Below are positions 4,493 to 60,660 of a DNA stretch of 64,000 nt, in pieces. The position numbers and the translations under genes are program-made. The notes under the pieces are model-generated. The model did no database searches. It saw only the letters and a program-made list of their open reading frames with translations, and was not told the DNA's origin. This stretch comes from Rhodoferax sp. PAMC 29310 (GTDB taxonomy: Bacteria > Pseudomonadota > Gammaproteobacteria > Burkholderiales > Burkholderiaceae_C): NCBI RefSeq assembly GCF_017948265.1, contig NZ_CP072852.1:1-64000 (forward strand), written 5' to 3'. Within the stretch, counting starts at the first letter, position 1, and every line of letters starts with the position of its first letter.

Positions 4493-7207
4493 TCAATCAG
4501 CCAGCGCGCGGGTGATGACTTCGCGCACGTCGTTGCTGAGATTGGTTTTGGCAGCAACGCGCTCAATCGCTTCGCGGGCAGCGGAGCGATAGGGCTCGGC
4601 CAGGCGCTTCCAGCGGTCCAGCGCGCGGGCGAGGCGGGCGGCCACCTGGGGGTTAGTGGCGTCCAGCTCAATCACACGGTCGCTCCAGAACTGGTAGCCA
4701 GCGGCGTCGGCGCGGTGAAACGCGGCGGGGTTGGCGTTGCAGTAACTGAAGATGACGCTGCGGGCGCGGTTGGGATTGCGCATGCTGAAGTCGGCGTGCT
4801 TCATGAGCTGGCGCACGGCGGGCAGGATCTGGCCGCCCCGGTCGCAGGCGCCGGCTTGCATGGCAAACCATTTGTCCAGCACGAGTTCTTCGTTCTTGAA
4901 GAAGGCATGAAAACGGGCCAGCGCGGGCGCTGCCAGTTCATGGCCGGTATTGACCAGCGCGTGCAGGGCGTTGGCGCGGTTGGTCATGTTGTCGGCGTCT
5001 TTGAAGCGCTGCAGCGCTTGGCCGGGCCAGGTGGCGTCGCCGCTCTCGCGGGCGGCCAGGCATAGGTTGGTCAGCGCCATACCGGCCAGCGCGCGTCGGC
5101 CGCTGGAAACAGGGTCGGGCTGGTAGGCGCCGTTGGCACTGTGGGTTTCAAGCGCCCACTGCCAGTCGTCGGCCAAGGCCACCGCCAACTGGGTGCGCAT
5201 GGATTCGCGCACCGCGTGAATGCGCTGTGGGTCAACCACCGCGAGTTGCTCGGCAATGTAGGTCTCGGAGGGCAGGGTGAGCACCAGCTCTTTGAAAGCA
5301 GCGTCCAGCGTGGGGTGACGCAAGACATGACGCATGGCGTCAATATATGCATCGTTGATGGCCTTAGCCCCCGTAATATCTGCGGGAGCCACTATCAATT
5401 CAATAGCGTTTCGCAGAGACAGGCGTTGGGCCGCTTCCCACCGGTTGAACGGGTCGGGGTCGTTGGCCAGCAAGGTGATCAGCTGCCCGTCGGTGTATTC
5501 AAAGTCCAGCACCACAGGGGCCGAGAAGCCGCGCAGGATGGACGGCACGGGTTCTTCGTCCACATTGACGAAGGTGATGGATTCGTTGGCCTGCGTCATC
5601 ACAAACAGGTGGCTGGTGCCGGATGCAGCTTCCTGGCCTTGCGCTTGCATGGGCTGGGCGTCGCCAAGGGCGCTGACCAGACCAATGCTGACGGGCAGCA
5701 CAAACGGTTCATTGGCAGTCTGGCCGGGCAGGGCGGCGCAGCTTTGCTCAAAACTCAGGGTGTAGGTGCGCGCCTGGGCGTCGTACTGGCCGGCGCCTTT
5801 CAGGTGCGGGGTGCCGGCCTGGCTGTACCAATGCTTGAACTGGGGCAACAGGCGAGCCAACTCTGACGTGGGGTTGGCGTCTGCAATGGCCTGGGCGAAG
5901 TCGTCGCAGGTCACGGCCTGGCCGTCATGGCGCTCAAAGTACAGCGTCATGCCCTTGGCAAAGCCGTCACGGCCCACCAGGGTTTGCATCATGCGAACCA
6001 CCTCGGCACCTTTTTCGTAAATGGTGACGGTGTAGAAGTTGCTGATCTCCAGGTAGCTGTCCGGGCGCACGGGGTGGGCCATGGGGCCGGCGTCTTCGGG
6101 AAACTGGGCGGTGCGCAGCACACGCACGTCTTCAATGCGCTTCACGGCACGGGCCGACGCCTCGCGGCACAGGTCTTGTGAGAACTCCTGGTCGCGGAAG
6201 ACGGTGAGGCCTTCTTTCAGGCTGAGTTGGAACCAGTCGCGGCAGGTGACGCGGTTGCCGCTCCAGTTGTGGAAGTACTCGTGGCCGACAACGCTCTCAA
6301 TGTTGGAGAAGTCGGCGTCGGTGGCGGTGGCCTGGCTGGCCAGCACATACTTGGTGTTGAAGATGTTGAGGCCCTTGTTCTCCATGGCGCCCATGTTGAA
6401 GTCGCTGGTCGCCACAATCATGAAGCGCTCCAGGTCCAGTGGCAGGCCAAAGCGGGCTTCGTCCCACACCACGGAGGCCATGAGCGAGTTCATCGCGTGC
6501 TCTGTTTTGTCCATGTCGCCTTGGCGCACATAAATTTGCAGCAGGTGGTCTTTGCCACCGCGCGAGGTGATGCGTTGCTCGCGGCACACCAACTGGCCTG
6601 CCACCAGTGCGAACAGGTAAGAGGGTTTTTTGTGCGGGTCCACCCAGGTGGCGAAGTGGCGGCCTTCGTTGCCCGTGCCTTCCATGGCGCCCGAGTCGAC
6701 GAGGTTGCCGTTGCTCAGCAGCACCGGGTACTTGGCTTTGTCGGCTCGAAGGGTGACGGTGTAGTTGGCCATCACATCAGGACGGTCCAGGAAGTAGGTG
6801 ATGCGGCGAAAGCCCTCGGCTTCACACTGGGTGAAGAAGGAGTCGTTGCTCACATACAAGCCCATGAGCTTGGTGTTTTTGATGGGCGCGCAGGTGGTGA
6901 AAATTTCAAGATCGAAGCTGCCTTCAGCGGGCAGGTTTTCCAGCACCAGGCGGCTGCCTTCCAGCTTGAAGGAGGTGCCTTGGCCGTTGACCAGCACGCG
7001 GGCCAGGTTGAGTTCTTCGCCGTCCAGCTTCAAAGCCTGTGCGGGCACGTCTGGGTTGCGACGCAGCGTCATCTTGTTCAGGACGCGGGTTTTGGCGGGG
7101 TCCAGGTCAAAAGTCAGGTGGACGGTGTCGATCCAGAAGGCGGGGGCGGTGTAGTCGCCGCGGTGAATCATGGTGGACGGGCTCTGGCCATCAAGAAGTT
7201 GCAACAT
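4493..7207 (-). CDS. pepN: Aminopeptidase N (M1 family)
   Basis: A 904-residue cytoplasmic zinc metallopeptidase that removes N-terminal residues from peptides during protein turnover. The exopeptidase motif GAMEN is at 273-277. The zinc site HEXXH is at 309-313 (HEYFH), with the third ligand Glu332 in KEGLT. Length agrees with E. coli PepN (about 870) plus small insertions. The ATG at 7207 follows GGAG at good spacing and overlaps the end of the HAD gene by 17 bases, indicating coupling. In the C-terminal helical domain, just before a conserved DAFxDAMRxVLRHP-like stretch, the coding sequence contains a copy of the dispersed ~58-bp element (5351-5408), adding about 19 residues in frame. Confidence 0.97.
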   Translation of the reverse strand: MLQLLDGQSPSTMIHRGDYTAPAFWIDTVHLTFDLDPAKTRVLNKMTLRRNPDVPAQALKLDGEELNLARVLVNGQGTSFKLEGSRLVLENLPAEGSFDLEIFTTCAPIKNTKLMGLYVSNDSFFTQCEAEGFRRITYFLDRPDVMANYTVTLRADKAKYPVLLSNGNLVDSGAMEGTGNEGRHFATWVDPHKKPSYLFALVAGQLVCREQRITSRGGKDHLLQIYVRQGDMDKTEHAMNSLMASVVWDEARFGLPLDLERFMIVATSDFNMGAMENKGLNIFNTKYVLASQATATDADFSNIESVVGHEYFHNWSGNRVTCRDWFQLSLKEGLTVFRDQEFSQDLCREASARAVKRIEDVRVLRTAQFPEDAGPMAHPVRPDSYLEISNFYTVTIYEKGAEVVRMMQTLVGRDGFAKGMTLYFERHDGQAVTCDDFAQAIADANPTSELARLLPQFKHWYSQAGTPHLKGAGQYDAQARTYTLSFEQSCAALPGQTANEPFVLPVSIGLVSALGDAQPMQAQGQEAASGTSHLFVMTQANESITFVNVDEEPVPSILRGFSAPVVLDFEYTDGQLITLLANDPDPFNRWEAAQRLSLRNAIELIVAPADITGAKAINDAYIDAMRHVLRHPTLDAAFKELVLTLPSETYIAEQLAVVDPQRIHAVRESMRTQLAVALADDWQWALETHSANGAYQPDPVSSGRRALAGMALTNLCLAARESGDATWPGQALQRFKDADNMTNRANALHALVNTGHELAAPALARFHAFFKNEELVLDKWFAMQAGACDRGGQILPAVRQLMKHADFSMRNPNRARSVIFSYCNANPAAFHRADAAGYQFWSDRVIELDATNPQVAARLARALDRWKRLAEPYRSAAREAIERVAAKTNLSNDVREVITRALAD
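5351..5408 (-). repeat. Dispersed ~58-bp element, copy A (inside pepN)
   Basis: On the minus strand it begins CGCTATTGAATTGATAG and ends GGGGGCTAAGGCCATCAACGAT. Read in the pepN frame it gives A-I-E-L-I-V-A...G-A-K-A. This is the same frame as copies B, C and E. Confidence 0.7.
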
Positions 7208-9022: not shown

Positions 9023-9931
9023 TCAGGAATTCAGCAAAAAATCGTCGATCAAGGAGGCCAGAACTTGCGGCTGGTCGTGGTGCACCATGTGGCCGGCATC
9101 TGCAACATGGGCCATTTTCAGGTTCGGCACGACCTTGATCCGTTCATGGTGCTCTTTCAGCGTGAATTTGCCTTTGAACCACTGGGTCATGCTCTCGTCT
9201 TCGGCCTCGACCATCAGGGTGGGCGCGGTGATAGCGCCGTAAAGGGCTTGCACTTCTTCCAGGCGGTACAGCATGGCGTGCGGCACTTTGTGGGCCGGGT
9301 TGCCCAGAATGCGCCATTGGCCGTGCACGGTTTCCTGCGCCCAGTGGCGGGCCAGCCAGTTGGCTTTGTCGGCGCCCAGGCGGGTGTTGGTTTTCATCAG
9401 ACGATTCGCCACGCCCTCCACGGTGTCGTAAGCGCTCAGGTCCATGTCGCCCTGGTGCAGCTTCTTCAAGCTGTCCATCCAGCTGGCATAGCGGCCAGAG
9501 GCCTGGGTGGGGCGGGTGGCAGGCATGCCAAAACCTTCCAGGTTGACCAAGCGGCGAATGCGTTCAGGGCGAATGCCGGCGTAAATCATGGCCACGTTGC
9601 CGCCCATGCTGTGGCCGACCAAGTGAATGGGGCCGTGGGGCACGTAGTGGTCGAGCAAGAAGTCCAGGTCGGCCAAATAGTCGGGAAACCAGAAGTTGTC
9701 GGCCTCAGTGGTGGCGGTCAGGCCAAAACCACGCCAATCGGGGGCAATGATGTAGTGGTTGTGGTTGAGGGCGTCCACCACAAACTGGTAGCTGGCGGCC
9801 ACATCCATCCAGCCGTGCAGCAGCACCAGCGGAGTTTTGTCAGGTGCGGGTCCGCCCCAGACACGGACGTGGTACTGCAGGGTGCGAATCGGGACAAACT
9901 CGCTTCGGGAGGTTCTTTGGGCTTGGTACAT
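9023..9931 (-). CDS. Alpha/beta-fold hydrolase
   Basis: A 302-residue cytoplasmic hydrolase. The oxyanion-loop HGWMD is at 39-43, the nucleophile elbow GHSMGG puts Ser at 108, and the last part contains a plausible triad Asp/Glu (VEAEDES) and a His in DAGHMVHHDQP. This fits carboxylesterase, epoxide hydrolase or haloalkane-like members, so the substrate cannot be assigned. It is transcribed divergently from the acyl-CoA synthetase with only 26 bases between start codons, so the two share one regulatory gap and may work on related substrates. Confidence 0.85.
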   Translation of the reverse strand: MYQAQRTSRSEFVPIRTLQYHVRVWGGPAPDKTPLVLLHGWMDVAASYQFVVDALNHNHYIIAPDWRGFGLTATTEADNFWFPDYLADLDFLLDHYVPHGPIHLVGHSMGGNVAMIYAGIRPERIRRLVNLEGFGMPATRPTQASGRYASWMDSLKKLHQGDMDLSAYDTVEGVANRLMKTNTRLGADKANWLARHWAQETVHGQWRILGNPAHKVPHAMLYRLEEVQALYGAITAPTLMVEAEDESMTQWFKGKFTLKEHHERIKVVPNLKMAHVADAGHMVHHDQPQVLASLIDDFLLNS

Positions 9932-9957
9932 TTAGGGAATCATACGGAGACCCACCC

Positions 9958-11742
9958 ATGCGCGTCAGTCAAGCCAGCGACAAAGCCAGTCCCACGTTCA
10001 CCTTGCCAGAGGCCTATGCGCAGTTGCATGGCAACTTTCAATGGGCGGTGCCTGAGCACTTCAACATGGCGCAAGTGTGTTGCCAGCGCTGGGCCAGTGC
10101 ACCGAGTACTACTAAAAATATAGCTGTTATTGCAAGTGGGACGAGGGCTGAGGCCACTTTTCATTCTTATTCTGAGTTGCAGGAACAAGCCAACCGCTTG
10201 TCCAATGTCTTGACGGTGCTCGGTGTTGGCCGGGGCGACCGGGTGGCCATCGTGATGCCGCAGTGCTTCGAGACGGCGGTGGCCTACATGGCCGTGCTGC
10301 AAATGGGCGCGGTTGCCATGCCGCTGTCCATGTTGTTCGGGCCGGAGGCGCTGGAATTTCGCCTGCATGACAGCGAGGCCGTGGTCGCCATTGGTGACGC
10401 CACCAGCCTGGCCGGCTTGCAAGCCGTGCGGGATGACTGCCCGCTGTTGCGTTGCATTCTGGGCGTGGGCGATTTGATGCAAACGCTGGAAGGTGCAGAC
10501 TTCAACTACGCCGCCTCCCTGGCCCAGCAAAGGCCAGAGTTTGCGTTGGTGTCAACCCTGGCGGACGAGGCGGCGGTGTTGATCTACACCAGCGGCACCA
10601 CCGGCAACCCCAAAGGCGCGCTGATTCCGCACCGCGCCCTGATTGGCAACCTGACCGGATTTGTGTGCAGCCAGAACTGGTTTGGCTTTGACGGGGTGGA
10701 CAACGCGCAATCTGACGCCGTGTTCTGGAGCCCCGCCGACTGGGCCTGGACAGGGGGCCTGATGGACGCCTTATTGCCCACGTTGTACTTTGGCCGACCC
10801 ATCGTCGCCTTCAACGGCCGCTTCAGCCCCCAAACGGCGTTGGAGTTGATGGCGCAGTTTGGCGTGACACACACATTTTTGTTTCCCACGGCACTCAAAG
10901 CCATGATGAAGGCCTACCCCGGCACGGGCCAAGCCACGGTGCGCCAGCAGTTTGATCTCAAGCTGCAAGCCATCATGAGCGCGGGTGAGGCGGTGGGCGA
11001 CGCTGTGTTTGAGTACTGCCAGGCACAACTGGGCGTCACCGTGAACGAGATGTTTGGCCAGACCGAGGTGAACTACATCGTGGGCAACTGTGCCGTCAAA
11101 TGGCCGCCCAAGCCGGGCAGCATGGGCATGGGCTACCCCGGTCACCGGGTGGCCGTGATCGACGAGGCAGGCCGCGAGTGCCCGGTGGGCGTGGCGGGTG
11201 ACGTGGCGCTGAACCGCTTTGACGTGCATGGCCAGCCTGACCCGATTTTCTTTTTGGGCTACTGGAAGAACGCCGCCTCCACGCAAGGCAAGTTCACCGG
11301 CGACTGGTGCCGTACCGGCGACCTGGCCACGCGCGATGCCGACGGCTACCTCTGGTACCAGGGCCGTGCCGATGATGTGTTCAAGGCGGCCGGTTACCGC
11401 ATTGGCCCGGGTGAGATCGAGAACTGCCTGGTCAAGCACCCGGCTGTGGCCAATGCCGCTGTGGTGCCCAAACCTGACGCCGCGCGCGGGGCGCTGGTCA
11501 AAGCCTATGTGGTGATTGCTCCTGATTTTGTAGCTATCCGGGCAGCGTTTCCGGGGGGTGAGGCCCAATTTGATGCTGAACTGGCGGCCCAGTTGCAATT
11601 GCACATCAAAGGCAAGCTGGCACCTTATGAGTACCCCAAAGAGATTGAGTTTGTTGAGAGCCTGCCCATGACCACGACCGGCAAGGTGCAGCGCCGCGTG
11701 CTTCGCTTGCAGGAAGAGGCGCGGGCGGCGGCGCTCAAGTGA
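9958..11742 (+). CDS. AMP-binding acyl-CoA synthetase (acetyl-CoA synthetase-like)
   Basis: A 594-residue ANL-superfamily ligase that activates a carboxylic acid with ATP to acyl-AMP and then acyl-CoA. The P-loop-like YTSGTTGNPKG lies around residue 210; the adenylate motif, QTEVNYIVGN, and the hinge/C-terminal GRADDVFKAAGYRIGPGEIE are all present. The ATG at 9958 after GGAGACCC is preferred over in-frame upstream starts, which would overlap the divergent gene. The protein carries two copies of the dispersed element: B near residues 50-69 and C near residues 521-540, each adding ~19 residues in poorly conserved regions. The stop overlaps the next gene (TGATG). Exact acid substrate is unknown, probably short or medium chain. 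Confidence 0.92.
   Translation: MRVSQASDKASPTFTLPEAYAQLHGNFQWAVPEHFNMAQVCCQRWASAPSTTKNIAVIASGTRAEATFHSYSELQEQANRLSNVLTVLGVGRGDRVAIVMPQCFETAVAYMAVLQMGAVAMPLSMLFGPEALEFRLHDSEAVVAIGDATSLAGLQAVRDDCPLLRCILGVGDLMQTLEGADFNYAASLAQQRPEFALVSTLADEAAVLIYTSGTTGNPKGALIPHRALIGNLTGFVCSQNWFGFDGVDNAQSDAVFWSPADWAWTGGLMDALLPTLYFGRPIVAFNGRFSPQTALELMAQFGVTHTFLFPTALKAMMKAYPGTGQATVRQQFDLKLQAIMSAGEAVGDAVFEYCQAQLGVTVNEMFGQTEVNYIVGNCAVKWPPKPGSMGMGYPGHRVAVIDEAGRECPVGVAGDVALNRFDVHGQPDPIFFLGYWKNAASTQGKFTGDWCRTGDLATRDADGYLWYQGRADDVFKAAGYRIGPGEIENCLVKHPAVANAAVVPKPDAARGALVKAYVVIAPDFVAIRAAFPGGEAQFDAELAAQLQLHIKGKLAPYEYPKEIEFVESLPMTTTGKVQRRVLRLQEEARAAALK
10107..10164 (+). repeat. Dispersed ~58-bp element, copy B (in acyl-CoA synthetase)
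   Basis: It reads TACTACTAAAAATATAGCTG, then TGCAAGTGG, then AGGGCTGAGGCCAC. It is translated as T-T-K-N-I-A-V-I-A...R-A-E-A, in the same phase as copies A, C and E. Confidence 0.75.
11518..11576 (+). repeat. Dispersed ~58-bp element, copy C (in acyl-CoA synthetase)
   Basis: It reads GCTCCTGATTTTGTAGCTAT, then GGGCAGCG, then GGGGGTGAGGCCCAATTTGAT. It is translated A-P-D-F-V-A-I-R-A-A...G-E-A-Q-F-D. It is the second copy in the same gene and lies within the C-terminal subdomain. Confidence 0.75.
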
Positions 11743-18767: not shown

Positions 18768-18779
18768 GGATTTTTAGAG

Positions 18780-18835
18780 CAAATCCGACACCAGCGCTCT
18801 ACCTACCTGCGGGAGAAGCTATCGAATGTGTAGCA
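18780..18835 (-). repeat. Dispersed ~58-bp element, copy D (intergenic)
   Basis: On the minus strand it reads TTGCTACACATTCGATAGCT, then CCCGCAGG, then AGAGCGCTGGTGTCGGATTTG. It starts immediately after the stop codon of the HD-domain gene and lies between it and the convergent Lrp-type gene. Confidence 0.65.
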
Positions 18836-18836
18836 A

Positions 18837-19790
18837 TTAGGGGTGCTGTGCGGCGTAGGCACCAAGCTGAAGAATCAGGTAATGGTTGAGGTGCTCGCGC
18901 ATGGCTGACGCCGCCAGGGCCGACTTGATAGCCGGGTTGCCATTGGCGGTGCGGTGCAATCTCGGCGGGTTCATGAGCGCGCCCTGTGCATCGATGACCA
19001 CCGCCACATGAGGGCGATTCGGTGTGGCACTGCGCCGCATGACGACCGCCGTCTCGCGGTTGTCCAAGCGCACATAGGTACCGGGGGGGCACAGGCCCAC
19101 TGCGCGAACCAAAGCGTGGCCAGCCTCGTCCTTGCGGTTGGTGGAGTGTTCAATGGCGGTGCGAGCCGAATCCGTGGCGCTGCGGCCTGTCCGTGACTGG
19201 CGGGGGCTGATCATCGCCGCATAGCGGTCGACCACTCTCAATATCCTGGCAAGCCGCTGCCCGGGAGGGATCTCATGCAGGTTGCCCGTGTCCGTTGACT
19301 CATCGTGATGCAGTGAAATCGTGTCCAGCCACAACTCGTCGACGACGCCGAGGTTGGACAGCATCAGCGTGCCCTTCATGGCGTGCAAACGAATGGCGTC
19401 CAGTTGGGCGCCGGTGGGGCGTTCAGCCTGGTTGGCCAACTCGTCCTGAAGTGCGGTCATGGCGATATTCATCGTCAGGGCGGCGTGCACCAGGCTGTCG
19501 CGTTCTTTGTGGGGCAGGTGCAACTCCTGCGCAATCAAGTGGCACAACACGGCGCTGACCAGTGAGTGAGAGGCGCTGTAGCCAACCGGTGAATTGCCGG
19601 CCAGCTGAAACAACAAATACAAACCCACATCGGCGTCGCGTTTGAGCAAGTCTTTCATCCAGCGGTCGTATTGCCATACCCGCTGTTCAAACTCCTGAAT
19701 GCTCGCCGGGCTGCCCAAAATAATGCCCAGGCCTGACTCCAGGTCTGACCAGAGCCCCAGCAGTTCTTCGTATTGATTTTCGTTGTGCAT
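18837..19790 (-). CDS. HD-domain phosphohydrolase-like protein, degenerate
   Basis: A 317-residue cytoplasmic protein. The middle shows an HD-GYP-like arrangement: GYSASHSLVSAVLCHLIAQEL, then LVHAALTMNIAMTALQDEL, then the metal-type ISLHHDES, then PPGQRLARILRVVDRYAAMISPRQSR. The usual HD pair and the HDxGK segment are altered (SHS, MNIAMTALQ), so hydrolytic activity is doubtful although the HHE-like motif remains. The C-terminal ~90 residues contain a small domain (YVRLDNRETAVVMRRS). It is third in a minus-strand cluster after yajQ (c-di-GMP binding) and a retropepsin, which makes a signalling role conceivable. Confidence 0.75.
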   Translation of the reverse strand: MHNENQYEELLGLWSDLESGLGIILGSPASIQEFEQRVWQYDRWMKDLLKRDADVGLYLLFQLAGNSPVGYSASHSLVSAVLCHLIAQELHLPHKERDSLVHAALTMNIAMTALQDELANQAERPTGAQLDAIRLHAMKGTLMLSNLGVVDELWLDTISLHHDESTDTGNLHEIPPGQRLARILRVVDRYAAMISPRQSRTGRSATDSARTAIEHSTNRKDEAGHALVRAVGLCPPGTYVRLDNRETAVVMRRSATPNRPHVAVVIDAQGALMNPPRLHRTANGNPAIKSALAASAMREHLNHYLILQLGAYAAQHP

Positions 19791-30179: not shown

Positions 30180-31484
30180 ATGAAAACATTGAACGACTGG
30201 CTCGAACACTGCGAGCAATTGCACCCCAAGAACATCGACATGGGGTTGGAGCGGGTGCGAACGGTCGCCGATCGCATGCAAATCCGGTTCGACTGCCCGG
30301 TGATTACCGTGGCGGGCACCAATGGCAAGGGGTCGACCTGCGCCATGCTGGAGGCCATTTTGCTTCAGGCGGGCTACAGGACGGGCGTTTACACCTCGCC
30401 TCACCTCGTTCATTTTGAGGAGCGATTGCGGCTTCGCGGCGAAGCGGTGAATGCTACTGAATTGATAGCTGGCTTCGCAGCGGTGGAGAGGGCTAGATGC
30501 CAAAATGATACTGAAGTCTCACTCACTTATTTTGAGTTCTCCACTTTGGCCATACTGGACGTGATGTCGCGCTCCATTCTGGACGTGGTGATTCTTGAGG
30601 TTGGTTTGGGTGGCCGTCTGGACGCGGTCAACATCATTGACGCCGATTGCGCGGTGATCACCAGCGTGGATCTGGATCACATGGAGTTCCTGGGCACGGA
30701 CCGCGAGCAGATTGGGCGCGAAAAAGCCGGAGTGATGCGAACCGGGCGTCCCGTGATCGTGAGTGACCCCATGCCGCCTCAAAGCGTGCTGGACTATGCG
30801 ACTGAAATTGATGCGGATCTCTGGCGTTTTGGCGTGGACTTCAACGTCTCTGGTGACAAGCAGCAATGGGGCTGGGCAGGACGAGGCCGTCGTTACAGTG
30901 GATTGGCGTACCCTGCGCTGCGCGGCGCAAATCAACTGGTCAACGCTGCGGGGGTCCTTGCGGCGCTGGCCGCGTTGCGGAGCCGGCTGCCGGTGACGGC
31001 GCAGTCGGTGCGCAACGGGCTGGCTTTTGTGGAGTTGCCAGGCCGGTTCCAGATCATTCCGGGGCAACCCACGCTGGTGCTGGATGTGGCGCATAACCCG
31101 CATTCCGTCGCGGCTCTGGCGGCCAATTTGGATGCCATGGGCTACTTCCCGACCACCCACGCGGTGGTGGGGGCCATGGCCGACAAGGACTTGGCCACCA
31201 TGCTGGCCAAAGTGAATCCCTTGATTGACAAGTGGTATTTCACCGACTTGCCCACCGCCCGCGCGGCCACTGGCGCCAGCCTGTTCGAGCGGTGGCAGGC
31301 CCAAAACACCCGAAAGGGCGCCGTGGCGTCCGCCTATGCCGACCCGCAGTTGGCACTGAAGGCGGCCGTGGCCGCTGCCGACCCCGCTGATAGAATCGTG
31401 GTCTTCGGGTCCTTCTACACCGTGGGCGGTATTCTGAAGGATGGGCTTCCCCGACTTCATGCCCAACACCTGCCCAACTCCTGA
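30180..31484 (+). CDS. folC: Dihydrofolate synthase / folylpolyglutamate synthase
   Basis: A 434-residue bifunctional enzyme that adds glutamate to dihydropteroate and extends the polyglutamate tail of folates. ATP site: VAGTNGKGST (residues 44-53). Also VYTSPHLVHFEERLRL, LTYFEFSTLAILD, EVGLGGRLDAVN, ITSVDLDHMEFLG and LDVAHNPHS, all typical. The variable loop around residues 92-110 coincides with a copy of the dispersed element (30453-30509). It starts a cluster folC-dedD-cvpA-purF on the plus strand, the conserved arrangement in many proteobacteria. Confidence 0.96.
   Translation: MKTLNDWLEHCEQLHPKNIDMGLERVRTVADRMQIRFDCPVITVAGTNGKGSTCAMLEAILLQAGYRTGVYTSPHLVHFEERLRLRGEAVNATELIAGFAAVERARCQNDTEVSLTYFEFSTLAILDVMSRSILDVVILEVGLGGRLDAVNIIDADCAVITSVDLDHMEFLGTDREQIGREKAGVMRTGRPVIVSDPMPPQSVLDYATEIDADLWRFGVDFNVSGDKQQWGWAGRGRRYSGLAYPALRGANQLVNAAGVLAALAALRSRLPVTAQSVRNGLAFVELPGRFQIIPGQPTLVLDVAHNPHSVAALAANLDAMGYFPTTHAVVGAMADKDLATMLAKVNPLIDKWYFTDLPTARAATGASLFERWQAQNTRKGAVASAYADPQLALKAAVAAADPADRIVVFGSFYTVGGILKDGLPRLHAQHLPNS
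30453..30509 (+). repeat. Dispersed ~58-bp element, copy E (inside folC)
   Basis: It reads GCTACTGAATTGATAGCTGG, then CGCAGCGGTGGAG, then AGGGCTAGATGCCAAAATGAT. It is translated A-T-E-L-I-A...R-A-R-C-Q-N-D, in the same phase as A, B and C. The fit to FolC homology is also fair, so partial chance resemblance is possible. Confidence 0.65.
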
Positions 31485-36222: not shown

Positions 36223-36299
36223 GGAGTGGTAGTTCAGTTGGTTAGAATACCGGCCTGTCACGCCGGGGGTCGCGGGTTCGAGTCCCGTCCACTCCGCCA
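36223..36299 (+). tRNA. tRNA-Asp (anticodon GUC), copy 1
   Basis: Acceptor GGAGTGG/CCACTCC, discriminator G, anticodon loop CTGTCAC between CCGGC and GCCGG reads GTC. CCA is encoded. Confidence 0.95.
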
Positions 36300-36401
36300 T
36301 TATCGGGAGAGCCGTTATGAATCGTTTTCGTAGCGGCTTTTTATTTCCGAGCAATCGCTTGGATTGAGGTTTGGCAGTTTGCAAAAATTGCGGGTGATTT
36401 T

Positions 36402-36477
<76 letters not shown>

Positions 36478-36533
36478 AAATTTAAGGCAGTGTGAAAATC
36501 ACTGCAGGTCAACGGAAGTCCGTAAAAGGTTTA

Positions 36534-36609
36534 GACCCCATCGTCTAGAGGCCTAGGACACTACCCTTTCACGGTAGGTACCGGGGTTCGAATCCCCGTG
36601 GGGTCGCCA
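36534..36609 (+). tRNA. tRNA-Glu (anticodon UUC), copy 2
   Basis: Identical to copy 1, 480 bases downstream. Confidence 0.95.
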
Positions 36610-36702
36610 AATTCATCACTTGATGAGTGAAGCACAAGTTGGTAACAGTCAACCCGACAGGGAAGGCGGCTTGGCTCGAAAGAGCGAACGTTACCACTAC
36701 CA

Positions 36703-36779
36703 GGAGTGGTAGTTCAGTTGGTTAGAATACCGGCCTGTCACGCCGGGGGTCGCGGGTTCGAGTCCCGTCCGCTCCGCCA
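36703..36779 (+). tRNA. tRNA-Asp (anticodon GUC), copy 2
   Basis: Differs from copy 1 by one base in the 3' acceptor strand (CCGCTCC instead of CCACTCC), turning one T-A pair into a T-G wobble. Confidence 0.95.
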
Positions 36780-38819: not shown

Positions 38820-39352
38820 AATAAGCTCGGTGTGGACACGGATTCGGAGAAGAGGCTGGGGGCGGCGCCTTCCAGCTGGAGCAGGGCGGTTTTTCGGGGC
38901 AGGCCCCCGGCATAGCCGGTGAGTGAACCATTGGCCCCCACCAAGCGGTGACAGGGCACGATGATACTGACCGGGTTTCGACCCACCGCACCCCCAACCG
39001 CGCGGACAGCCGCCGGTTTGCCAATCTTCGCGCTGATGGCACCGTAACTGGTGGTTGCGGCACAGGGAATGGCGAGCAGTGCCTGCCACACCGCTTGTTG
39101 GAAGGGCGTGCCACTGCTGAGGTCCAGCGGCACCTCAAAGGTGCGTCGCTGGCCAGCAAAATACTCGGTCAATTCGGCCTGGGCTTGTAGGAGGATCGGG
39201 TGCTCGTCCGCCACCGGCCAGTGGTTGACCTCAGGCATATGTGCCTGTTGGTCAAAGAATACACCGACCAAAGCATCGTCGGTGGCGGCCAGGGTGATGC
39301 GGCCCAGGGGGCTTTCGAAACGGGATTGAACAGTGTTTGGGGGGAATTTCAT
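38816..39352 (-). CDS. ogt: Methylated-DNA-[protein]-cysteine S-methyltransferase
   Basis: A 178-residue suicide repair protein that removes methyl groups from O6-methylguanine. Active site IVPCHR with Cys134, helix-turn-helix GTPFQQAVWQALLAIPCAATTSYGAIS, and Asn hinge/RAVGGAVGRNP motif. Together with the upstream Ada-AlkA fusion and the transporter it forms a minus-strand group, suggesting an alkylation-damage operon. A copy of the dispersed element fills the 51-bp gap between it and the Ada-AlkA gene. Confidence 0.95.
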   Translation of the reverse strand: MKFPPNTVQSRFESPLGRITLAATDDALVGVFFDQQAHMPEVNHWPVADEHPILLQAQAELTEYFAGQRRTFEVPLDLSSGTPFQQAVWQALLAIPCAATTSYGAISAKIGKPAAVRAVGGAVGRNPVSIIVPCHRLVGANGSLTGYAGGLPRKTALLQLEGAAPSLFSESVSTPSLF

Positions 39353-39415
39353 TTTTTGACCTTTTGTGTCTCTAGCCCTTGCGTTGTGAGCGCAGGCTGC
39401 TACTCATTTGATAGT
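39353..39415 (-). repeat. Dispersed ~58-bp element, copy J (gap and 3' end of ada-alkA)
   Basis: On the minus strand it runs CACTATCAAATGAGTAGCAG, then CTGCGCTC, then GGGCTAGAGACACAAAAGG. It begins inside the last codons of the Ada-AlkA gene, supplies its TGA stop (39404-39406), and ends next to the ogt start. Confidence 0.65.
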
Positions 39416-40963
39416 GATTTTGGGCTTCTCGTCGGGTTTCTTGCCTAGGGTCGCCCATGCACGGACCACGGCGTAACTTCGCCAGGGTTGCCAAACCAGT
39501 GACGCGGCCAGCGCCGCTTTGGCGGGCTGCGGCACCTGCTGGACCCCCAACGCTTTTTGCAGTGCGACATCCCCGGATGGAAACGCATCGGGCCAACGCA
39601 ACGCCCGCATGGCGATGTATTGGGCGGTCCAGTCACCCACGCCCGGCAAGGTTTTGAGGGTGGTGATCGTGCTGAGTGGGTCCGCGCCAGCGTGCAATTG
39701 CAGTCTTTGATCCAACACAGCACGGGCCAGCGCCTGGATGGCGGTCTGGCGCTGTTTGACGATGCCCAGGCTGCCAAGTACGTCGCCGCTGGCGCCGGCC
39801 AGAGCGGCCGCGGAAGGAAACAGATGGGTCAGGGCGGGAAAGGGCGTGACGATGGGCGCGCCAAACCGGCTCACCAGGCGGGTGCTCAAAGTGCGGGCCG
39901 CTGCCACGGTGATTTGCTGGCCCAAAATGGCGCGCACCGCCAGCTCGAAGCCATCCAGCGTGCCCGGCACCCGCAAGCCATCACTGTCGGGGAAGTGGCT
40001 GTGCAGGTGTTCATTGATGGGATGGGGGTCAGCATCCACATCCAGCAGGGCCCGGGCGCGCGCCAGCACCTGAGGAAGGACCTCATGTAAGGAATCACTC
40101 ACCTGAAGGTCGATTCGACAGCGGTCGGCGTCAAAAACAGCGTGAATCCAGCCAGAGTGCTGGGCCAAGCCTTGTTGGACAGCGAGCGTACGAGCCAAAC
40201 CCGGGGCGCTGCCCTCAAGGCTTACCTGCTCCAGGCTCGCAATCTGCCGGGTGGCGAAGAAGTGCAGCATGGCGGCCACGTCATAAGGCGGGCGGTAGGC
40301 CAATTTGAGCCGCAGACCGTGGGCCTTCGCAGGGCCGCTGTCGCGGCGCAAGGCACTTGGATTCAGTTTGTAGTGTTCGACAAAGGCCGCGTTGAAGCGC
40401 CGGACGCTGGAATACCCGCTGAGTGTGGCGATTTGATTGACCGGTAAATTGGTGTCAGTCAGCCACTGTTTGGCACTCAACAGGCGCCGTGTTTGAAGGT
40501 ATTGAAGCGGCGAGATGCCGAAGCGGGCCTCGAAAATGCGGCGCAAATGACGGTCGCTCACGCCCAGACGCTGGGCCAGCCGCTGCACGCTGGGTGGCCG
40601 GTCACCCCAACCCTCGGGCGAATCCAGCAGCTGCGCGGCTTGGCCGGCAAGAATGTGGGAGGCGTCCTGCGTGGACCACGCCAGGGTGTCCGGGCCACGG
40701 CTTTGACCTGACAGGCGGGGCGCAATCTCCGGGCGGCATCGCAGGCAGGGCCGAAACCCGGCGTCTTCGGCTTGCGCGGCCAGGTTGAAAAAGCGACAGT
40801 TCTCCCGCTTGGGGGTGCGTACCCGGCACACTGGGCGGCAGTAGATGCCGGTGGAGGTGACGCCGGTGAAAAAACAGCCGTCAAACCGAGCATCTTTCGC
40901 TTTCAGGGCGAGGTAGCAGGCGTCGTCTTCGGGTGAACTTTGAGGGTGGCTCATGGTGCTCAT
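39404..40963 (-). CDS. Ada-AlkA fusion: methylphosphotriester sensor and 3-methyladenine glycosylase
   Basis: A 519-residue repair and regulatory protein. The N-terminal Ada zinc domain has Cys42, Cys46, Cys73 and Cys76 (GIYCRPVC...PCLRC), which accept methyl groups from phosphotriesters. An AraC-type helix-turn-helix region (RLAQRLGVSDRHLRRIFEARFGISPLQYLQTRRLLSAKQWL) follows, and the C-terminal half is AlkA-like with an HhH-GPD segment (LPGVGDWTAQYIAMRAL) and catalytic Asp in FPSGDVALQ. It excises alkylated bases and may activate its own operon when methylated. Met at 40963 or 40954 are both possible; the upstream TTG at 40996 is unlikely. Its last residues come from repeat copy J. Confidence 0.93.
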   Translation of the reverse strand: MSTMSHPQSSPEDDACYLALKAKDARFDGCFFTGVTSTGIYCRPVCRVRTPKRENCRFFNLAAQAEDAGFRPCLRCRPEIAPRLSGQSRGPDTLAWSTQDASHILAGQAAQLLDSPEGWGDRPPSVQRLAQRLGVSDRHLRRIFEARFGISPLQYLQTRRLLSAKQWLTDTNLPVNQIATLSGYSSVRRFNAAFVEHYKLNPSALRRDSGPAKAHGLRLKLAYRPPYDVAAMLHFFATRQIASLEQVSLEGSAPGLARTLAVQQGLAQHSGWIHAVFDADRCRIDLQVSDSLHEVLPQVLARARALLDVDADPHPINEHLHSHFPDSDGLRVPGTLDGFELAVRAILGQQITVAAARTLSTRLVSRFGAPIVTPFPALTHLFPSAAALAGASGDVLGSLGIVKQRQTAIQALARAVLDQRLQLHAGADPLSTITTLKTLPGVGDWTAQYIAMRALRWPDAFPSGDVALQKALGVQQVPQPAKAALAASLVWQPWRSYAVVRAWATLGKKPDEKPKITIK

Positions 40964-41083
40964 GATAGGCCGCCGTCGAGGTAAAGCAATGCTCAAACTA
41001 GCCGTTTTCGGACATGTTCCCGACTAGGACGGCCCCTACAATCCGATGAGAAAATCAAATTCAAACCAATCAGGGAACCCGCC

Positions 41084-42476: not shown

Positions 42477-43517
42477 ATGAGAATATTAATCGTCAAACTC
42501 TCGTCGCTGGGCGATGTGGTGCACGCCATGCCGGCGGTGCAAGACATCCGTCATGCCCACCCTGAGGCTGAGATTGACTGGGTCGTCGAGCGTGGCTTTG
42601 CACCGCTGGTGCGCCGCTGCGACGGTGTTCACCGGGTGATCGAGTGCGAACTGCGGCGCTGGCGCAAGACACCGCTGGCGCCTGCTACGCGAGCGGCGTG
42701 GACTGCGTTCAAGCGCGAGTTGCAGGCGCAGGCCTATGACGCGGTGATTGATTTGCAGGGCTTGACCAAGTCAGCGCTGGTGGCTTGGTTGGCCCGCCTG
42801 ACACCGAGCGGGCGGCGTTTTGGCTTGGCAAACCAGACCGAAGGCTCCAGTTTTGAGGCGCCTGCTCGCTGGGTGGCCCACGTCGCCGTGTCGCTGCCCC
42901 CGCACATTCATGCCGTGGCGCGGTCACGCCAACTCTGCGCCCGCGTGCTGGGCTATTTGCCGCCATCTTCATCATCTTTTGGGCTTCTGGCCCAGGTGAA
43001 TCAAGCGCAGAGTGCTATCCATAGTGAAGCATCTGGCGACGCCGCGCCTCTTGGGCAGGTCGCCTTGGTGCATGGCACCTCGCGGGCTGACAAGCAATGG
43101 CCGCTGGCGCATTGGCAAGCCTTGGGCCAACGGCTCAATGAGGCGGGTTACGGCGTCGTGTTGCCGCACGGTAGCGCGGCGGAAGAGGCTACCTCCCATG
43201 AGATTGCCTCAAACCTGCCCAACGCCACCGTCTGGCCCCGCTTGGGTCTGGATGCCTTGACGGACGCATTGGCGGCCTGCGCTGGCGTGATTGGCGTGGA
43301 CAGCGGTTTGAGCCACATGGCCGTGGCGCTAGACCTGCCCCATGTGCAAATTTACAACTTTGACACCGCCTGGCGCACCGGGCCCACGGGCCCGGCGGGC
43401 AAGGCCGTGGCATCGGGCCAGAGGCGGCAGTGCAGCGTGTTTGCGCATCCGGCGCCATCCCTCGACGCGGTTTGGCAGGTTTGGTTGGGCATATCCGTGG
43501 TGCGCCAGCCCGTCTGA
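42477..43517 (+). CDS. waaC: Lipopolysaccharide heptosyltransferase I
   Basis: A 346-residue GT-B glycosyltransferase (GT9) that adds the first L-glycero-D-manno-heptose to Kdo2-lipid A at the inner membrane. N-terminal MRILIVKLSSLGDVVHAMPAVQDIR and the C-terminal donor site GVDSGLSHMAVALDLPHVQIYNFDTAWRTGP are diagnostic; LVHGTSRADKQWP lies between. The linker between the two Rossmann domains contains dispersed-element copy F in reverse orientation. The stop overlaps the waaA start (TGATG). Confidence 0.95.
   Translation: MRILIVKLSSLGDVVHAMPAVQDIRHAHPEAEIDWVVERGFAPLVRRCDGVHRVIECELRRWRKTPLAPATRAAWTAFKRELQAQAYDAVIDLQGLTKSALVAWLARLTPSGRRFGLANQTEGSSFEAPARWVAHVAVSLPPHIHAVARSRQLCARVLGYLPPSSSSFGLLAQVNQAQSAIHSEASGDAAPLGQVALVHGTSRADKQWPLAHWQALGQRLNEAGYGVVLPHGSAAEEATSHEIASNLPNATVWPRLGLDALTDALAACAGVIGVDSGLSHMAVALDLPHVQIYNFDTAWRTGPTGPAGKAVASGQRRQCSVFAHPAPSLDAVWQVWLGISVVRQPV
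42971..43026 (-). repeat. Dispersed ~58-bp element, copy F (inside waaC, antisense)
   Basis: On the plus strand it reads ATCATCTTTTGGGCTTCTGG, then AATCAAGCGCAGAG, then TGCTATCCATAGTG, the reverse complement of the consensus. It is translated S-S-F-G-L-L-A-Q-V-N-Q-A-Q-S-A-I, in the same phase as copies G and I. Confidence 0.7.
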
Positions 43518-44857
43518 TGCGCGCTCTTTATTCTCTTGCGCTGTGGATAGCTCAGCCGTTTCTGCGCCGCAAACTGGCCAAGCGCAGTGTTGATGAGCCT
43601 GGTTACGGAGTCGCGGTTGAGGAACGCTTTGGCCGCTACACCTCGGCGCCGGTCAGTGGGCAGGAACTGATCGTCTGGGTCCACGCAGTCTCGCTGGGTG
43701 AGACGCGAACGGCGGCTTTGTTGATTGCCGGTTTGCGTGAACGCCTGCCGGGCATGCGCTTGCTGTTGACCCATGGCACGGCCACCGGCCGGGCCGAGGG
43801 GACGACGCTGCTGAAAACGGGCGATATGCAGGTGTGGCAACCCTGGGACACGCCCGGTGCGGTGCAACGCTTTTTGACCCATTTCAAACCCAGCCTGTGC
43901 ATTTTGATGGAAACCGAGGTGTGGCCTAATCTGGTGGCACTCAGCCAGCAGAACGGTGTACCGCTGGTGCTGGCCAATGCCCGCATGAGTGAGAAGTCGC
44001 GGCGGCAGGCCGCTCGACTGGGGTGGTTGTCCCGGCCCGCGATGGCGGCATTGAGTGCCGTCTGGGCCCAAACCGAGGCCGACGCCGATCGCCTTCGCCA
44101 ATTGGGGGCCACCGTGCAGGGCGTCTTTGGCAACCTCAAGTTTGACGCGGCGCCCGACGCGGCCAAGCTGGCGACGGGGCGGGCATGGCGTGCCCGCACG
44201 GCGTCACCGGTGGCGCTGTTCACCAGTTCCCGCGAGGGGGAAGAAATCGTCTGGTTGAAGGCATTGAGAGATTCAACGCCTTTTAGGGCTTCAGCGCAGG
44301 CGCAGCAAGCGCAAGGTACTACTAATTCGATAGCTGTTGGCGTTCAGTGGATGGTGGTGCCACGCCATCCCCAGCGCTTTGAGGCTGTGGCGGCGCTGAT
44401 TGAGCAGCAGGGTTTCACCGTGTCACGGCGCCGCAATTGGCAAGACGGACCGCCGGTTGTTGATCCGCTGAACACCATTTGGCTAGGCGATTCACTGGGC
44501 GAAATACCAATGTATTACGGCTTGTCCGATGTGGCCTTGTTGGGCGGAAGCTTTGAGCCGCTGGGCGGGCAGAACCTGATTGAGGCTGCCGCCTGCGGTT
44601 GCCCGGTGATCATGGGGCCGAACACTTTCAATTTCCTGCAAGCGGCGGAGTTGGCGCAAGCCGCGGGGGCCGCAATACGAGTGGCGGACCTGTCGGAAGC
44701 GGTGGCCAAGACGGGTGACTTGTTGGGTAACCCGACCGATCAAGCCACCATGACACTGGCCGCCCTGGGCCTGTCGCGCACCCACCGGGGTGCGCTTGAG
44801 AAAACCGTGACGGCAGTCACCGTCCTACTTGATCAGCAGGGCGTTCACGGTTTGTAG
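43517..44857 (+). CDS. waaA: 3-deoxy-D-manno-octulosonic acid (Kdo) transferase
   Basis: A 446-residue membrane-associated GT30 glycosyltransferase that adds Kdo residues to lipid IVA. An N-terminal hydrophobic anchor (LYSLALWIAQPFL) precedes VWVHAVSLGETRTAALLIAGLRERLPGMRLLLTHGTATGR, then METEVWPNLVALSQQNGVPLVLANARMSEKS; FTSSREGEE and WMVVPRHPQRF follow, and GGSFEPLGGQNLIEAAACGCPVIMGPNTFNF closes the donor site. Copy G of the element inserts about 20 residues between FTSSREGEE and the VVPRHP motif. The 3' end overlaps the convergent tolC gene by 33 bases. Confidence 0.96.
   Translation: MRALYSLALWIAQPFLRRKLAKRSVDEPGYGVAVEERFGRYTSAPVSGQELIVWVHAVSLGETRTAALLIAGLRERLPGMRLLLTHGTATGRAEGTTLLKTGDMQVWQPWDTPGAVQRFLTHFKPSLCILMETEVWPNLVALSQQNGVPLVLANARMSEKSRRQAARLGWLSRPAMAALSAVWAQTEADADRLRQLGATVQGVFGNLKFDAAPDAAKLATGRAWRARTASPVALFTSSREGEEIVWLKALRDSTPFRASAQAQQAQGTTNSIAVGVQWMVVPRHPQRFEAVAALIEQQGFTVSRRRNWQDGPPVVDPLNTIWLGDSLGEIPMYYGLSDVALLGGSFEPLGGQNLIEAAACGCPVIMGPNTFNFLQAAELAQAAGAAIRVADLSEAVAKTGDLLGNPTDQATMTLAALGLSRTHRGALEKTVTAVTVLLDQQGVHGL
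44271..44334 (-). repeat. Dispersed ~58-bp element, copy G (inside waaA, antisense)
   Basis: On the plus strand it reads CGCCTTTTAGGGCTTCAGCG, then AGCAAGCGCAAGG, then TACTACTAATTCGATAGC. It is translated S-T-P-F-R-A-S-A-Q-A-Q-Q-A-Q-G-T-T-N-S-I-A. Most WaaA proteins that I can recall are shorter here, so it looks like an insertion. Confidence 0.75.
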
Positions 44858-56245: not shown

Positions 56246-57190
56246 ATGTCTCTTTCTTCATTTAATCGCCGTCAATTGCTGGCGTTCAGTGCAACTGCAC
56301 TTTCTCTTCCCGCTGTGGCCTTGGCGCCGCGTCCGGGCCGTCTGGTGGTCGTTGGCGGGGCCGAAGATCGCCTGAAAGACAAAATTATCCTGCGCCGATT
56401 TCTGTCACTTTGTGGCGGGGAAAACGCGAATATATTGGTGCTGACCGCAGCCAGTTCTGATCAACCAGCGGCATGGCGTGGATACGACCAGGTGTTTCGG
56501 GAAATGGGCGCGACCCAAACAACCCACCTGCCCATTTACACCCAGGAAGATGCAAACTCGGCCGACACCGTCAACCGGATTTTGAGTGCTGATGGCATTT
56601 TCATGAGCGGTGGAGATCAGCGCCGTTTGATGGAGCGACTTTCGAATACCGAGGCAGAACGGGCCATGCACACCGCCTTTCACCTGCGTCGCTGCTGCAT
56701 TGGCGGCACGAGTGCCGGTGCGGCTGTGATGTCACACATCATGTTGGCCGAGGGGGGCACGCCAGTGTTGCCCAAAAAAGATGCCGCGGTATTGGAGGAA
56801 GGGCTGGGCTTTGTTCCGAACGCGATCATCGATCAACACTTCTCAGAGCGCCGCCGTCTGGGCCGGTTAATGTCGGTGCTGGCCCAGCGCCCGGACCTGT
56901 TGGGGGTGGGTATTGATGAAGACACCGCCCTGATCATTGAGCGCGGCACCGGCGTCGAGGTTGTCGGCAAAGGGGTGGTCACATTGATCGATGGCCGGCG
57001 CATGCGTTCGAATTTTGGCGCGGCCGCTGCGAGCGAACATCTGGAGATGCTGGGAGTTACCCTGCATGTGCTGCCTGCGGGCAACCGCTACAGCAGCGTT
57101 GTGGACGAAACCAGCGGGAGCAGCCGCCTACCTAGGTCATTGCGCAGCGCCATTGCTGAACTGGTGGCGCCCGGGCCCATTCGCGGTTGA
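56246..57190 (+). CDS. Exported cyanophycinase (S51 family)
   Basis: A 314-residue serine peptidase-like protein that cleaves cyanophycin (multi-L-arginyl-poly-L-aspartate). It has a Tat-like N-terminus: NRRQLLAFSATALSLPAVALA, with cleavage near residue 27. The nucleophile elbow CIGGTSAGAA gives Ser156; VVVGGAEDRL, FMSGGDQRRLME and VPNAIIDQHFSERRRLGRL are typical of cyanophycinase. Secretion suggests it degrades external polymer (CphE-like) rather than an intracellular reserve; no cphA synthetase is in the window. Confidence 0.9.
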   Translation: MSLSSFNRRQLLAFSATALSLPAVALAPRPGRLVVVGGAEDRLKDKIILRRFLSLCGGENANILVLTAASSDQPAAWRGYDQVFREMGATQTTHLPIYTQEDANSADTVNRILSADGIFMSGGDQRRLMERLSNTEAERAMHTAFHLRRCCIGGTSAGAAVMSHIMLAEGGTPVLPKKDAAVLEEGLGFVPNAIIDQHFSERRRLGRLMSVLAQRPDLLGVGIDEDTALIIERGTGVEVVGKGVVTLIDGRRMRSNFGAAAASEHLEMLGVTLHVLPAGNRYSSVVDETSGSSRLPRSLRSAIAELVAPGPIRG

Positions 57191-57220: not shown

Positions 57221-57287
57221 TGATTTTGATGAAAATAGTGCTTTCTCTCCTTATCATTGTTGCGCAAGCAGCTACTGTTTCGATAGC
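57221..57287 (-). repeat. Dispersed ~58-bp element, copy H (5' end of small exported protein gene)
   Basis: On the plus strand it reads TGATTTTGATG, then ATAGTGCTTTCTC, then GCGCAAGCAGCTACT, then TTCGATAGC. This is the reverse-complement orientation. It overlaps the start codon and nearly all of the signal peptide of the following gene. Confidence 0.55.
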
Positions 57288-57477
57288 GGCCACCGAGCAC
57301 GGTGACAAGGAACGGGAGGTCGATATCGCCCGTCATCAAGCCATGGCCAGCGCACACAACAACGCGGCCAAGTGTCTGGCTTCGGGTGAAAAAGAAAATG
57401 TGTGCGAACAGGCCCTTCAAGCCGCCTGTCGCGGCTTGGCTATTGGAAAAACCTGCGGCATGAAACACGCCCACTGA
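57229..57477 (+). CDS. Small exported hypothetical protein with four Cys
   Basis: A protein of 82 residues from the ATG at 57229 (a Met three codons earlier lacks ribosome-site spacing). The signal peptide MKIVLSLLIIVAQAATVSIAA is followed by ~61 residues with HQAMASAHNNAAKCLASGEKENVCEQALQAACRGLAIGKTCGMKHAH. Its four Cys residues suggest two disulfides in the periplasm. Ends in a His-containing tail. Family and function are unknown. Its signal peptide coincides with repeat copy H. Confidence 0.65.
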   Translation: MKIVLSLLIIVAQAATVSIAATEHGDKEREVDIARHQAMASAHNNAAKCLASGEKENVCEQALQAACRGLAIGKTCGMKHAH

Positions 57478-59787: not shown

Positions 59788-60660
59788 CTAGCCCTTGGCG
59801 ACAGGGCGGCTCGGGTCGCTGCACCATTCGCTCCAGCTGCCTGCATACAGCGCGGTTTTACCCAAGCCGGCTACCTCCATGGCGATGATGTTGGGCACGG
59901 CGCTGACCCCACTGCCGCAGTGATGCACCACTGTTGCAGGGTCGCGACCGTCCAGCAGGGTCTCAAACTCGGCACGCAAGTCAGATGCGGATTTGAATGT
60001 GCCGTCTGCATTGAAGTTGAGCGAGAAAGGCCGATTTAGCGCACCCGGAATGTGACCGGCCACGGGGTCCAGCGGCTCGACCTCGCCTCGGTACCGCGGC
60101 GCGCCCCGAGCGTCGATCAAGGTCTGAGTCGATTTTTGTAGATTGACTGCTATCGTATTGGTAGTTGCTAGCGCAGTATTTTCGGGGGCCAGAGGCATAT
60201 TTTCGTTGAATTTGATTGCCGTCAAGTCCAGCTCGGTCGCGCTGTCGGTAGGGCCGCCTAGCGCTTGCCAGGCTTGCAGGCCGCCGTCCAGTACGGCCAC
60301 TTTGTCATGGCCCATCCATTTCAGCATCCACCACAAGCGGCCGCAGTAATTGACACCTTGGCGGTCATACACAACCACTTGCAGGGCGGGGGTTAGTCCA
60401 ATGTGATCGAGCCACGCCGCAAATGTGGCCCGTGAGGGCAGGGGGTGACGACCACCGGATGCAGCGTCGGAGGCAGATTTGGCGGCGCTGAGGTGGCGAT
60501 CCAGGTCCGCCCGCACAGCACCGGGAATGTGGGCCTGCAGGTACTGCAGGTCCCCCGCACCGGCTTGCATTAGCTCAAAGCTGCAGTCAAACACCATTGG
60601 CGGCTGGGCGCTGCCGAACAAGGTTTGAAGTTGATGTGCGGAGATCAGGGTGGTGTACAT
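59788..60660 (-). CDS. sseA: Tandem-rhodanese sulfurtransferase (thiosulfate/3-mercaptopyruvate type)
   Basis: A 290-residue cytoplasmic enzyme with two rhodanese domains. The first is the inactive one (VFDCSFELM...HIPGAVRADLDRHLS...VVVYDRQGVNYCGRLWWMLKWMG). The second holds the catalytic loop HHCGSGVSAVPNIIAM, the CGSGVTA-like type of mercaptopyruvate sulfurtransferases. It moves sulfane sulfur to acceptors. The linker between the domains is made largely from repeat copy I. Confidence 0.92.
   Translation of the reverse strand: MYTTLISAHQLQTLFGSAQPPMVFDCSFELMQAGAGDLQYLQAHIPGAVRADLDRHLSAAKSASDAASGGRHPLPSRATFAAWLDHIGLTPALQVVVYDRQGVNYCGRLWWMLKWMGHDKVAVLDGGLQAWQALGGPTDSATELDLTAIKFNENMPLAPENTALATTNTIAVNLQKSTQTLIDARGAPRYRGEVEPLDPVAGHIPGALNRPFSLNFNADGTFKSASDLRAEFETLLDGRDPATVVHHCGSGVSAVPNIIAMEVAGLGKTALYAGSWSEWCSDPSRPVAKG
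60149..60206 (+). repeat. Dispersed ~58-bp element, copy I (in sulfurtransferase linker)
   Basis: On the plus strand it reads GCTATCGTATTGGTAGTTGC, then TAGCGCAG, then GGGGGCCAGAGGCATATTTTC. In the minus-strand gene it is translated E-N-M-P-L-A-P-E-N-T-A-L-A-T-T-N-T-I-A, the same phase as F and G. Confidence 0.7.

Follow-up and report, generated by a model that had tools for sequence, protein, structure and literature searches.

Background

We consider a repeated sequence in the genome of Rhodoferax sp. PAMC 29310 (assembly GCF_017948265.1), ten copies of which lie in one stretch of 64,000 nucleotides (contig NZ_CP072852.1, positions 1 to 64,000 of the forward strand; this whole stretch is called the window below). 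Sequence-specific DNA uptake has been described for two families (PMC7811141). The uptake signal sequences (USS) have cores of 9-12 bp and number 1,465-2,206 per genome; bent AT tracts and variant motifs are described for them. They evolve by point mutation and are under-represented in coding sequence as well as in DNA acquired recently (PMC7811141). The DNA uptake sequences (DUS), for which dialects are known (PMC3630211), occupy permissive places of the core genome, and many of them are thought to arise by recombination and not by point mutation (PMC2397512). By our reasoning, such an origin could also yield length changes.

Two kinds of repeat have to be considered as well. The beta-proteobacterial repeat element (BRE, Hot et al. 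2011) is reported from Bordetella, Polaromonas, Rhodoferax, Acidovorax and Delftia, sometimes within coding sequences and with its function given as unknown; in Bordetella it is 75-91 bp long with an average GC of 69%, is sometimes found in tandem, and reaches at most 29 copies per genome (PMC3110155). The Rickettsia palindromic elements (RPE) are stem-loops of 105-146 bp that are reported as in-frame insertions in enzyme genes (PMC2229807). In a search of the literature on repeats, palindromic elements and uptake sequences in Comamonadaceae, Burkholderiales and Polaromonas/Rhodoferax, BRE alone was relevant among the excerpts returned, and strings of the motif itself gave no match in them.

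An earlier note, made from the letters of the window, had taken the ten copies for a dispersed element of about 58 bp, inserted in frame and resembling RPE. Our comparisons lead to a different picture. The repeat is a 69-bp motif that occurs hundreds of times in the genome, and inside several genes its copies appear, as judged from homologous sequences, to have formed over existing protein code rather than by insertion. At the strictly tested coding sites, the view that the motif would overlie existing code without a change of length is well supported.

The motif in the window and in the genome

The borders of the motif were set by the information content of each column in 28 genome copies (copy H of the window among them), which were gathered by searching for a 14-base core and allowing one mismatch. 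This gives a unit of 69 bp; the dispersed repeat of the earlier note is thus real and its length has to be revised. The consensus is approximately AAnTRCTATTnAATnnATAGCTGCTTGCGCAnnnnnnACGAGGGCTAGAGGCCnATTTnnC, followed by an A-rich end. The motif is asymmetric, with conserved blocks R-CTAY, TAGC, TGCGCA and GGGCTAGAGGCC and with A/T tracts near its end in which AAA and TTT can replace each other, and its GC content runs from 0.29 to 0.59 (median 0.43, n=92 copies).

A covariance model (R2) built from 37 copies finds exactly the ten copies in the window, all at 41.7 bits or more, and its next-best match there is the reverse of part of copy G (15.8 bits). Because some of these 37 copies come from the window, an independent matrix of 27 copies, all from outside the window, was also used. 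It gives the ten copies 24.8-50.6 bits, against a control maximum of 0.8 bits in the reversed sequence of 41 regions, and all ten are found close to where they had been placed. An eleventh place, at 24545 (+) of the window, reaches 11.0 bits with the same matrix, above the reversed control, and is perhaps a worn copy.

The genome consists of one contig of 4.59 Mb. A genome search finds at least 150 copies, which is a lower bound because the weakest of these still stands at E 2e-9. In 40 evenly spaced stretches of 20 kb (800 kb) we count 92 copies at E 1e-4 or better, a strong over-representation; extrapolated from this sample, there are about 530 copies per genome. The spread is even (mean 2.3 and variance 2.0 per 20-kb stretch), and at this density ten copies in 64 kb are ordinary for this genome. 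The strands are nearly balanced, with 77 plus and 73 minus among 150 of the copies. The orientation of these 150 may lean slightly to the lagging strand by GC skew, a weak tendency for which origin and terminus are estimates.

The context of the copies was taken from gene calls by a simple codon-based caller of our own, which gives 82% coding. Among 107 copies, 39 sit in open reading frames (ORFs) that show coding signal to either side of the copy, 63 are outside and 5 are unclear; the figure of 39 may be an undercount, because copy B, which is in-gene by homology, was scored as outside. Of the 60 non-genic copies, 19 occupy convergent gaps, more than their share, since such gaps make up 90 of 630 neighbouring gene pairs; divergent gaps contain 6 of the 60 (95 of the 630 pairs). 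Two stop-free frames account for 25 of the 36 in-gene copies that pass the threshold; in the window itself the forward in-gene copies do share one frame and the reverse ones another, as had been noticed.

Length tests at coding sites

If the copies had been inserted, their hosts would carry the 19 or so extra residues that the earlier note assigned to them. No length step of 19-23 residues is found at sites A, B, C or E. For FolC (site E), the best solved structure (1w78, which we take to be E. coli FolC) aligns through the motif with one gap of 4 residues, outside the shared F-A-x-x-E-x-A-R. Equal length at this site is seen in 118 of 120 close homologues, many of which probably carry the motif themselves. 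Among 58 loci that lack the motif, the difference ranges from -12 to +4 residues (18 at 0, 23 at +4 and 8 at +1). In the 52 of 80 loci that match the anchors, one register holds for all that score above -20, and the scores are smoothly graded from 46.9 to -62, with 34.6 in Rhodoferax (L130), 32.1 in Polaromonas (L080) and 25.8 in Ottowia (L126) as examples.

The other sites behave in a similar way. In PepN, the alignment with the best solved structure (4qhp) has a single gap position, and the segment has 47 residues in 83 of 102 matched homologues and 45-49 residues in all 102. In the acyl-CoA synthetase, site B has 32 residues in all 8 homologues with the motif and in 10 of the 11 without, and site C has 38 residues in 6 of 6 and 3 of 4 respectively. 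At a coding site outside the window (L063:2936-3004) the length is exactly 69 bp in six of six comparable orthologues, where the motif scores 36.2, 39.0 and 22.2 in three high-copy species versus -6.9, -7.3 and -17.6 in three low-copy species. Rows lacking the anchors were left out of these comparisons (PepN 18 of 120, FolC 28 of 80, synthetase site B 8 of 30 and site C 18 of 30, WaaA 1 of 30). In-frame insertion is therefore not borne out at the FolC, PepN and both synthetase sites, which are equal or near-equal in length with and without the motif; the alignment of host proteins with homologues that had been proposed as a check reveals no added segment at A, B, C and E, and leaves an insertion possible at WaaA (site G).

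Two further hosts vary in length. The WaaC segment from FGL to HGTSR (site F) has 36 residues in the window gene and 29-43 in low-copy species in one comparison; the WaaC anchors matched 5 of 30 loci in one comparison and 21 of 30 in another, whose scan window did not extend far enough for many scores. The linker of the sulfurtransferase has 45-66 residues in homologues, most often 49. A clean empty site is not found among the sites compared, in a flank-based comparison of orthologues that lost most sites as one flank failed to align and that tests intergenic sites little.

Conservation of the duplex sequence

The next question is what is kept in these copies. In 14 orthologous motif sites the mean identity is 0.79 in informative and 0.45 in uninformative columns (flanks about 82% identical, aligned parts alone, this genome counted twice at some sites), and in unrelated copies it is 0.74 and 0.29. 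Since orthologous copies agree in the informative columns about as well as unrelated ones do, these columns behave as a kept standard. The 6-nt spacer (columns 32-37), on the other side, is near random even in copies chosen by their exact or near-exact core, which is not expected from the decay of one master copy. The A/T-tract columns 56-58 swap jointly between TTT and AAA (z above 11), and this suggests that the shape of duplex DNA is read. Relative to the codon usage of the genome, the in-gene copies are enriched in ATA (14.3-fold), CTA (5.8), GCT (5.2) and AGG (4.4); because this excess of rare codons comes from the motif itself, it shows what the motif imposes and not by itself why.

The imperfect palindrome of the earlier note is present as letters, and its pairing is not conserved across copies. 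Column pairs give the putative hairpin no support from base-pair covariation: at columns 9-17 C-A occurs in 46 of 129 copies, and G stands more often with T than with C. No terminal inverted repeat is visible in the consensus. The modelling of the RNA fold that had been suggested yields neither a consensus fold nor covariation, and an RNA element is rejected for this reason.

Distribution among genomes

Within the Comamonadaceae, 122 of 299 genomes have the motif, and so do 68 of the 141 genera sampled, which agrees with the wide occurrence in this family that had been anticipated. In a scan of the order, 10 of 200 genomes give a match, four in the family (this genome included) and six in other families; these six have one or two copies each, in a scan that could miss dialects far from this model. 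Dialects do exist: 19 copies of an Acidovorax type read taGCGC-n-AGCGCtAG, where this genome has tgCGCA-n6-aCg-GgGCtag. In Ottowia (L126), two copies at 1512-1580 and 1595-1663 stand in tandem 14 bp apart, an arrangement like that reported for BRE.

Among 60 congeners, in a count that stops at 84, 31 have at least 72 matches and 29 have at most 35. Some lineages retain the motif from species to species, and others have almost none of it in the whole genome. At four coding sites, a score above 15 is reached in 34 of 38 cases from high-copy species (counting this genome) and in none of 31 from low-copy ones. A tree of 42 congeners, made with the motif columns removed and with 12 rows that carry under half the columns, needs at least 7 changes between high and low (shuffled mean 14.3), and well-supported branches force 2 of them. 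From these comparisons of genomes we infer that a trans-acting factor was gained or lost more than once. The presence of comEC does not account for this switch: a match is found in 60 of 60 congeners, 52 of them over the cut-off, and because the 8 below it are four high-copy and four low-copy drafts, the gene does not separate the two kinds of genome.

Plasmids and viral sequences were scanned as well. The plasmids of Polaromonas JS666 and R. ferrireducens T118 have one copy in 350 kb, and a BLAST of one copy against plasmids, insensitive given the degenerate motif, has a match in 3 of 72,556 records. Viral contigs were scanned by exact pattern, which says little because just 1 of 102 unbiased copies fits that pattern. 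Twenty stretches labelled viral (L211-L230) each have at least one strong copy, and some have two or three; these stretches may be prophage flanks or host DNA.

Copies in the window

Seven copies lie inside ORFs, as the earlier note had it, in six ORFs altogether, and the remaining three are at gene ends (Table 1). Apart from the motif, the window has a cluster of tRNA-Ala, tRNA-Glu and tRNA-Asp twice in tandem, about 480 bp apart, at 35924-36779 (+).

Table 1. The ten copies of the 69-bp motif in the window, with their location and score by the independent matrix.
Copy	Position	Strand	Location	Bits	Basis
A	5343..5411	-	inside pepN (4493-7207 -), element's forward frame	44.0	Peptidase_M1; segment length nearly constant in homologues
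B	10104..10172	+	N-terminal part of AMP-binding acyl-CoA synthetase (ORF 9844-11742 +)	39.9	AMP-binding; length equal with and without motif
C	11514..11582	+	C-terminal part of the acyl-CoA synthetase gene that also holds copy B	24.8	congeners of equal length with and without motif
D	18770..18838	-	fills the gap between two convergent stops (18767, 18837)	32.4	gene calls
E	30449..30517	+	inside folC (30180-31484 +), native conserved sequence	46.9	FolC homologues
J	39351..39419	-	between two minus-strand genes; overlaps the end of 39404-40996 and the first two bases of 38816-39352	50.6	gene calls
F	42966..43034	-	inside waaC-like heptosyltransferase (42516-43517 +), element's reverse frame	25.7	Glyco_transf_9
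G	44270..44338	-	inside waaA-like Kdo transferase (43517-44857 +), length-variable loop	35.8	Glycos_transf_N
H	57223..57291	-	non-coding, 32 bp past the stop of 56246-57190 +	40.7	
I	60145..60213	+	inside rhodanese-type sulfurtransferase (59788-60660 -), length-variable linker	45.8	Rhodanese

Interpretation

We tentatively read the repeats, with a confidence somewhat short of an even chance, as a chromosome-wide recognition signal for a DNA-binding machine and not as inserted elements. One trans-acting reader would maintain the motif, either by selection or by biased recombination. By analogy, and with slightly more reserve, we take this reader to be the DNA-uptake or recombination machinery of natural transformation. 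In that case the motif would label self DNA, the role that USS have in Haemophilus and DUS have in Neisseria. Fragments that match better would be taken up and recombined more often, and matches would consequently pile up wherever the protein or the intergenic sequence tolerates them; a double-stranded signal of this kind would evolve in place under its reader. No matter what reads it, this non-coding signal seems to shape the loops of proteins across many genera; protein segments that bear the motif can be misread as inserts.

Several observations weigh against this reading. The WaaA segment (site G) has 35-44 residues with the motif and 21-62 without it, mostly 21-30, so that an old insertion is possible there, and the WaaC of one congener (G015) is 14 residues shorter. 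Measured against solved structures, there are 12 extra residues at site C (the comparison being with a distant synthetase) and 4 at site B, about 8 in WaaC and about 5 in the sulfurtransferase. When hosts near folC were tested systematically, L142 exceeded 5 homologues by 19-25 residues and L106 exceeded 22 homologues mostly by 13-18 residues, where the L106 copy is an intergenic site read in an open frame, and L126 and L078 showed wide length ranges; the frames in question are perhaps not genic. As an intergenic site, L106 measures 81-169 bp with the motif and often 14-41 bp without, with some motif-free versions reaching 68-97 bp. At L060:7049-7117 the closest relative (G014; L277 near 1291) has a 53.3-bit copy on the opposite strand, and since the two lie in what looks like one shared gap, intergenic copies may turn over or flip. 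Insertion may thus take place in intergenic sequence or in a permissive loop, WaaA's for example. The sites tested were, moreover, picked because Rhodoferax sp. PAMC 29310 has the motif there. Finally, the motif is 69 bp long and occurs about once per 9 kb, and the USS/DUS have a 9-12-bp core and are far denser; the conserved columns here span 69 bp, with no short core of that size.

The copies could also be those of a mobile or formerly mobile small repeat (a miniature inverted-repeat transposable element, a repetitive extragenic palindrome (REP) or an RPE-like element) that inserts between genes and in frame and whose free positions later decay. The preference of the non-coding copies for gene ends and convergent gaps would suit such a repeat, as would the spacing differences at the L106 intergenic site, the longer loops at WaaA, the steps of 13-25 residues at two places near folC and the opposite-strand copy in G014. 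It is nevertheless an unlikely account in our judgement. The coding sites at which length does not change speak against it; the consensus has no terminal inverted repeat and its hairpin no covariation, and conservation is position-specific with a random spacer. Nor does Y1_Tnp show a link to the motif. The one Y1_Tnp gene found in the genome, a divergent relative of the REP-associated tyrosine transposases (RAYT) at G000:C1:4306788-4307114, has no motif copy in the surrounding 6 kb; similar-scoring matches occur in most congeners, and at least one Y1_Tnp gene is present in 53 of 60, including G009, G012 and G027, which have zero motif matches. A RAYT-driven REP is rejected on these two grounds.

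The motif could also be bound by a protein that organises the chromosome or acts in replication or repair, with ordinary selection keeping the site at hundreds of places. This is a serious rival, although one we also consider improbable. A long double-stranded motif with A/T tracts, on both strands almost equally and evenly spread, is what such a protein might use. However, orthologous sites freely hold or lack the motif, hence no single place seems to matter, and its near-absence in several congeners would need the loss of an otherwise useful system.

That the motif is the published BRE is very unlikely: the reported genera overlap, some copies are likewise within coding sequences and the Ottowia pair recalls the tandem habit, but a 69-bp motif with this GC range and hundreds of copies per genome is set apart from BRE, by description and not by sequence.

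Comparison with known systems

We return to the proposed recognition signal and compare it with the described systems. With the GTAG/CGTC REP and their RAYT transposases (PMC3733652) the motif shares its dispersal and a frequent location at the 3' ends of genes; it differs in being longer, in having no conserved palindrome and in having no link to Y1_Tnp. With the Rickettsia palindromic elements it shares a read-through in frame inside enzyme genes. Unlike them, it adds no residues at sites A, B, C and E and has no conserved hairpin; the likeness drawn in the earlier note fails on both of its marks, the in-frame added residues and the long stem-loop with terminal inverted repeats. With BRE it has genera and coding location in common, and it differs from the reported length, GC and copy number, a comparison made by description.

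The closest likeness is to the USS of Pasteurellaceae and the DUS of Neisseriaceae: the motif has many chromosomal copies and is strongly over-represented, it appears and fades in place at constant length (FolC, PepN, synthetase sites B and C, L063:2936), and it sits in permissive spots, with A/T-rich flanks and lineage dialects. Unlike USS and DUS it belongs to a different family, and its uptake role is argued here by analogy. On that analogy the Comamonadaceae may possess a third, independently evolved signal for the uptake or recombination of self DNA, about 70 bp long and with dialects, that overwrites coding sequence, sets the codons and loop peptides of core enzymes and has, along with its reader, disappeared from whole genomes more than once; we regard this as possible and, on balance, doubtful. 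If it holds, there would be natural on/off pairs of congeners in which to find the reader, and a third family with sequence-specific uptake and a far longer motif would mean that this trait evolves repeatedly.

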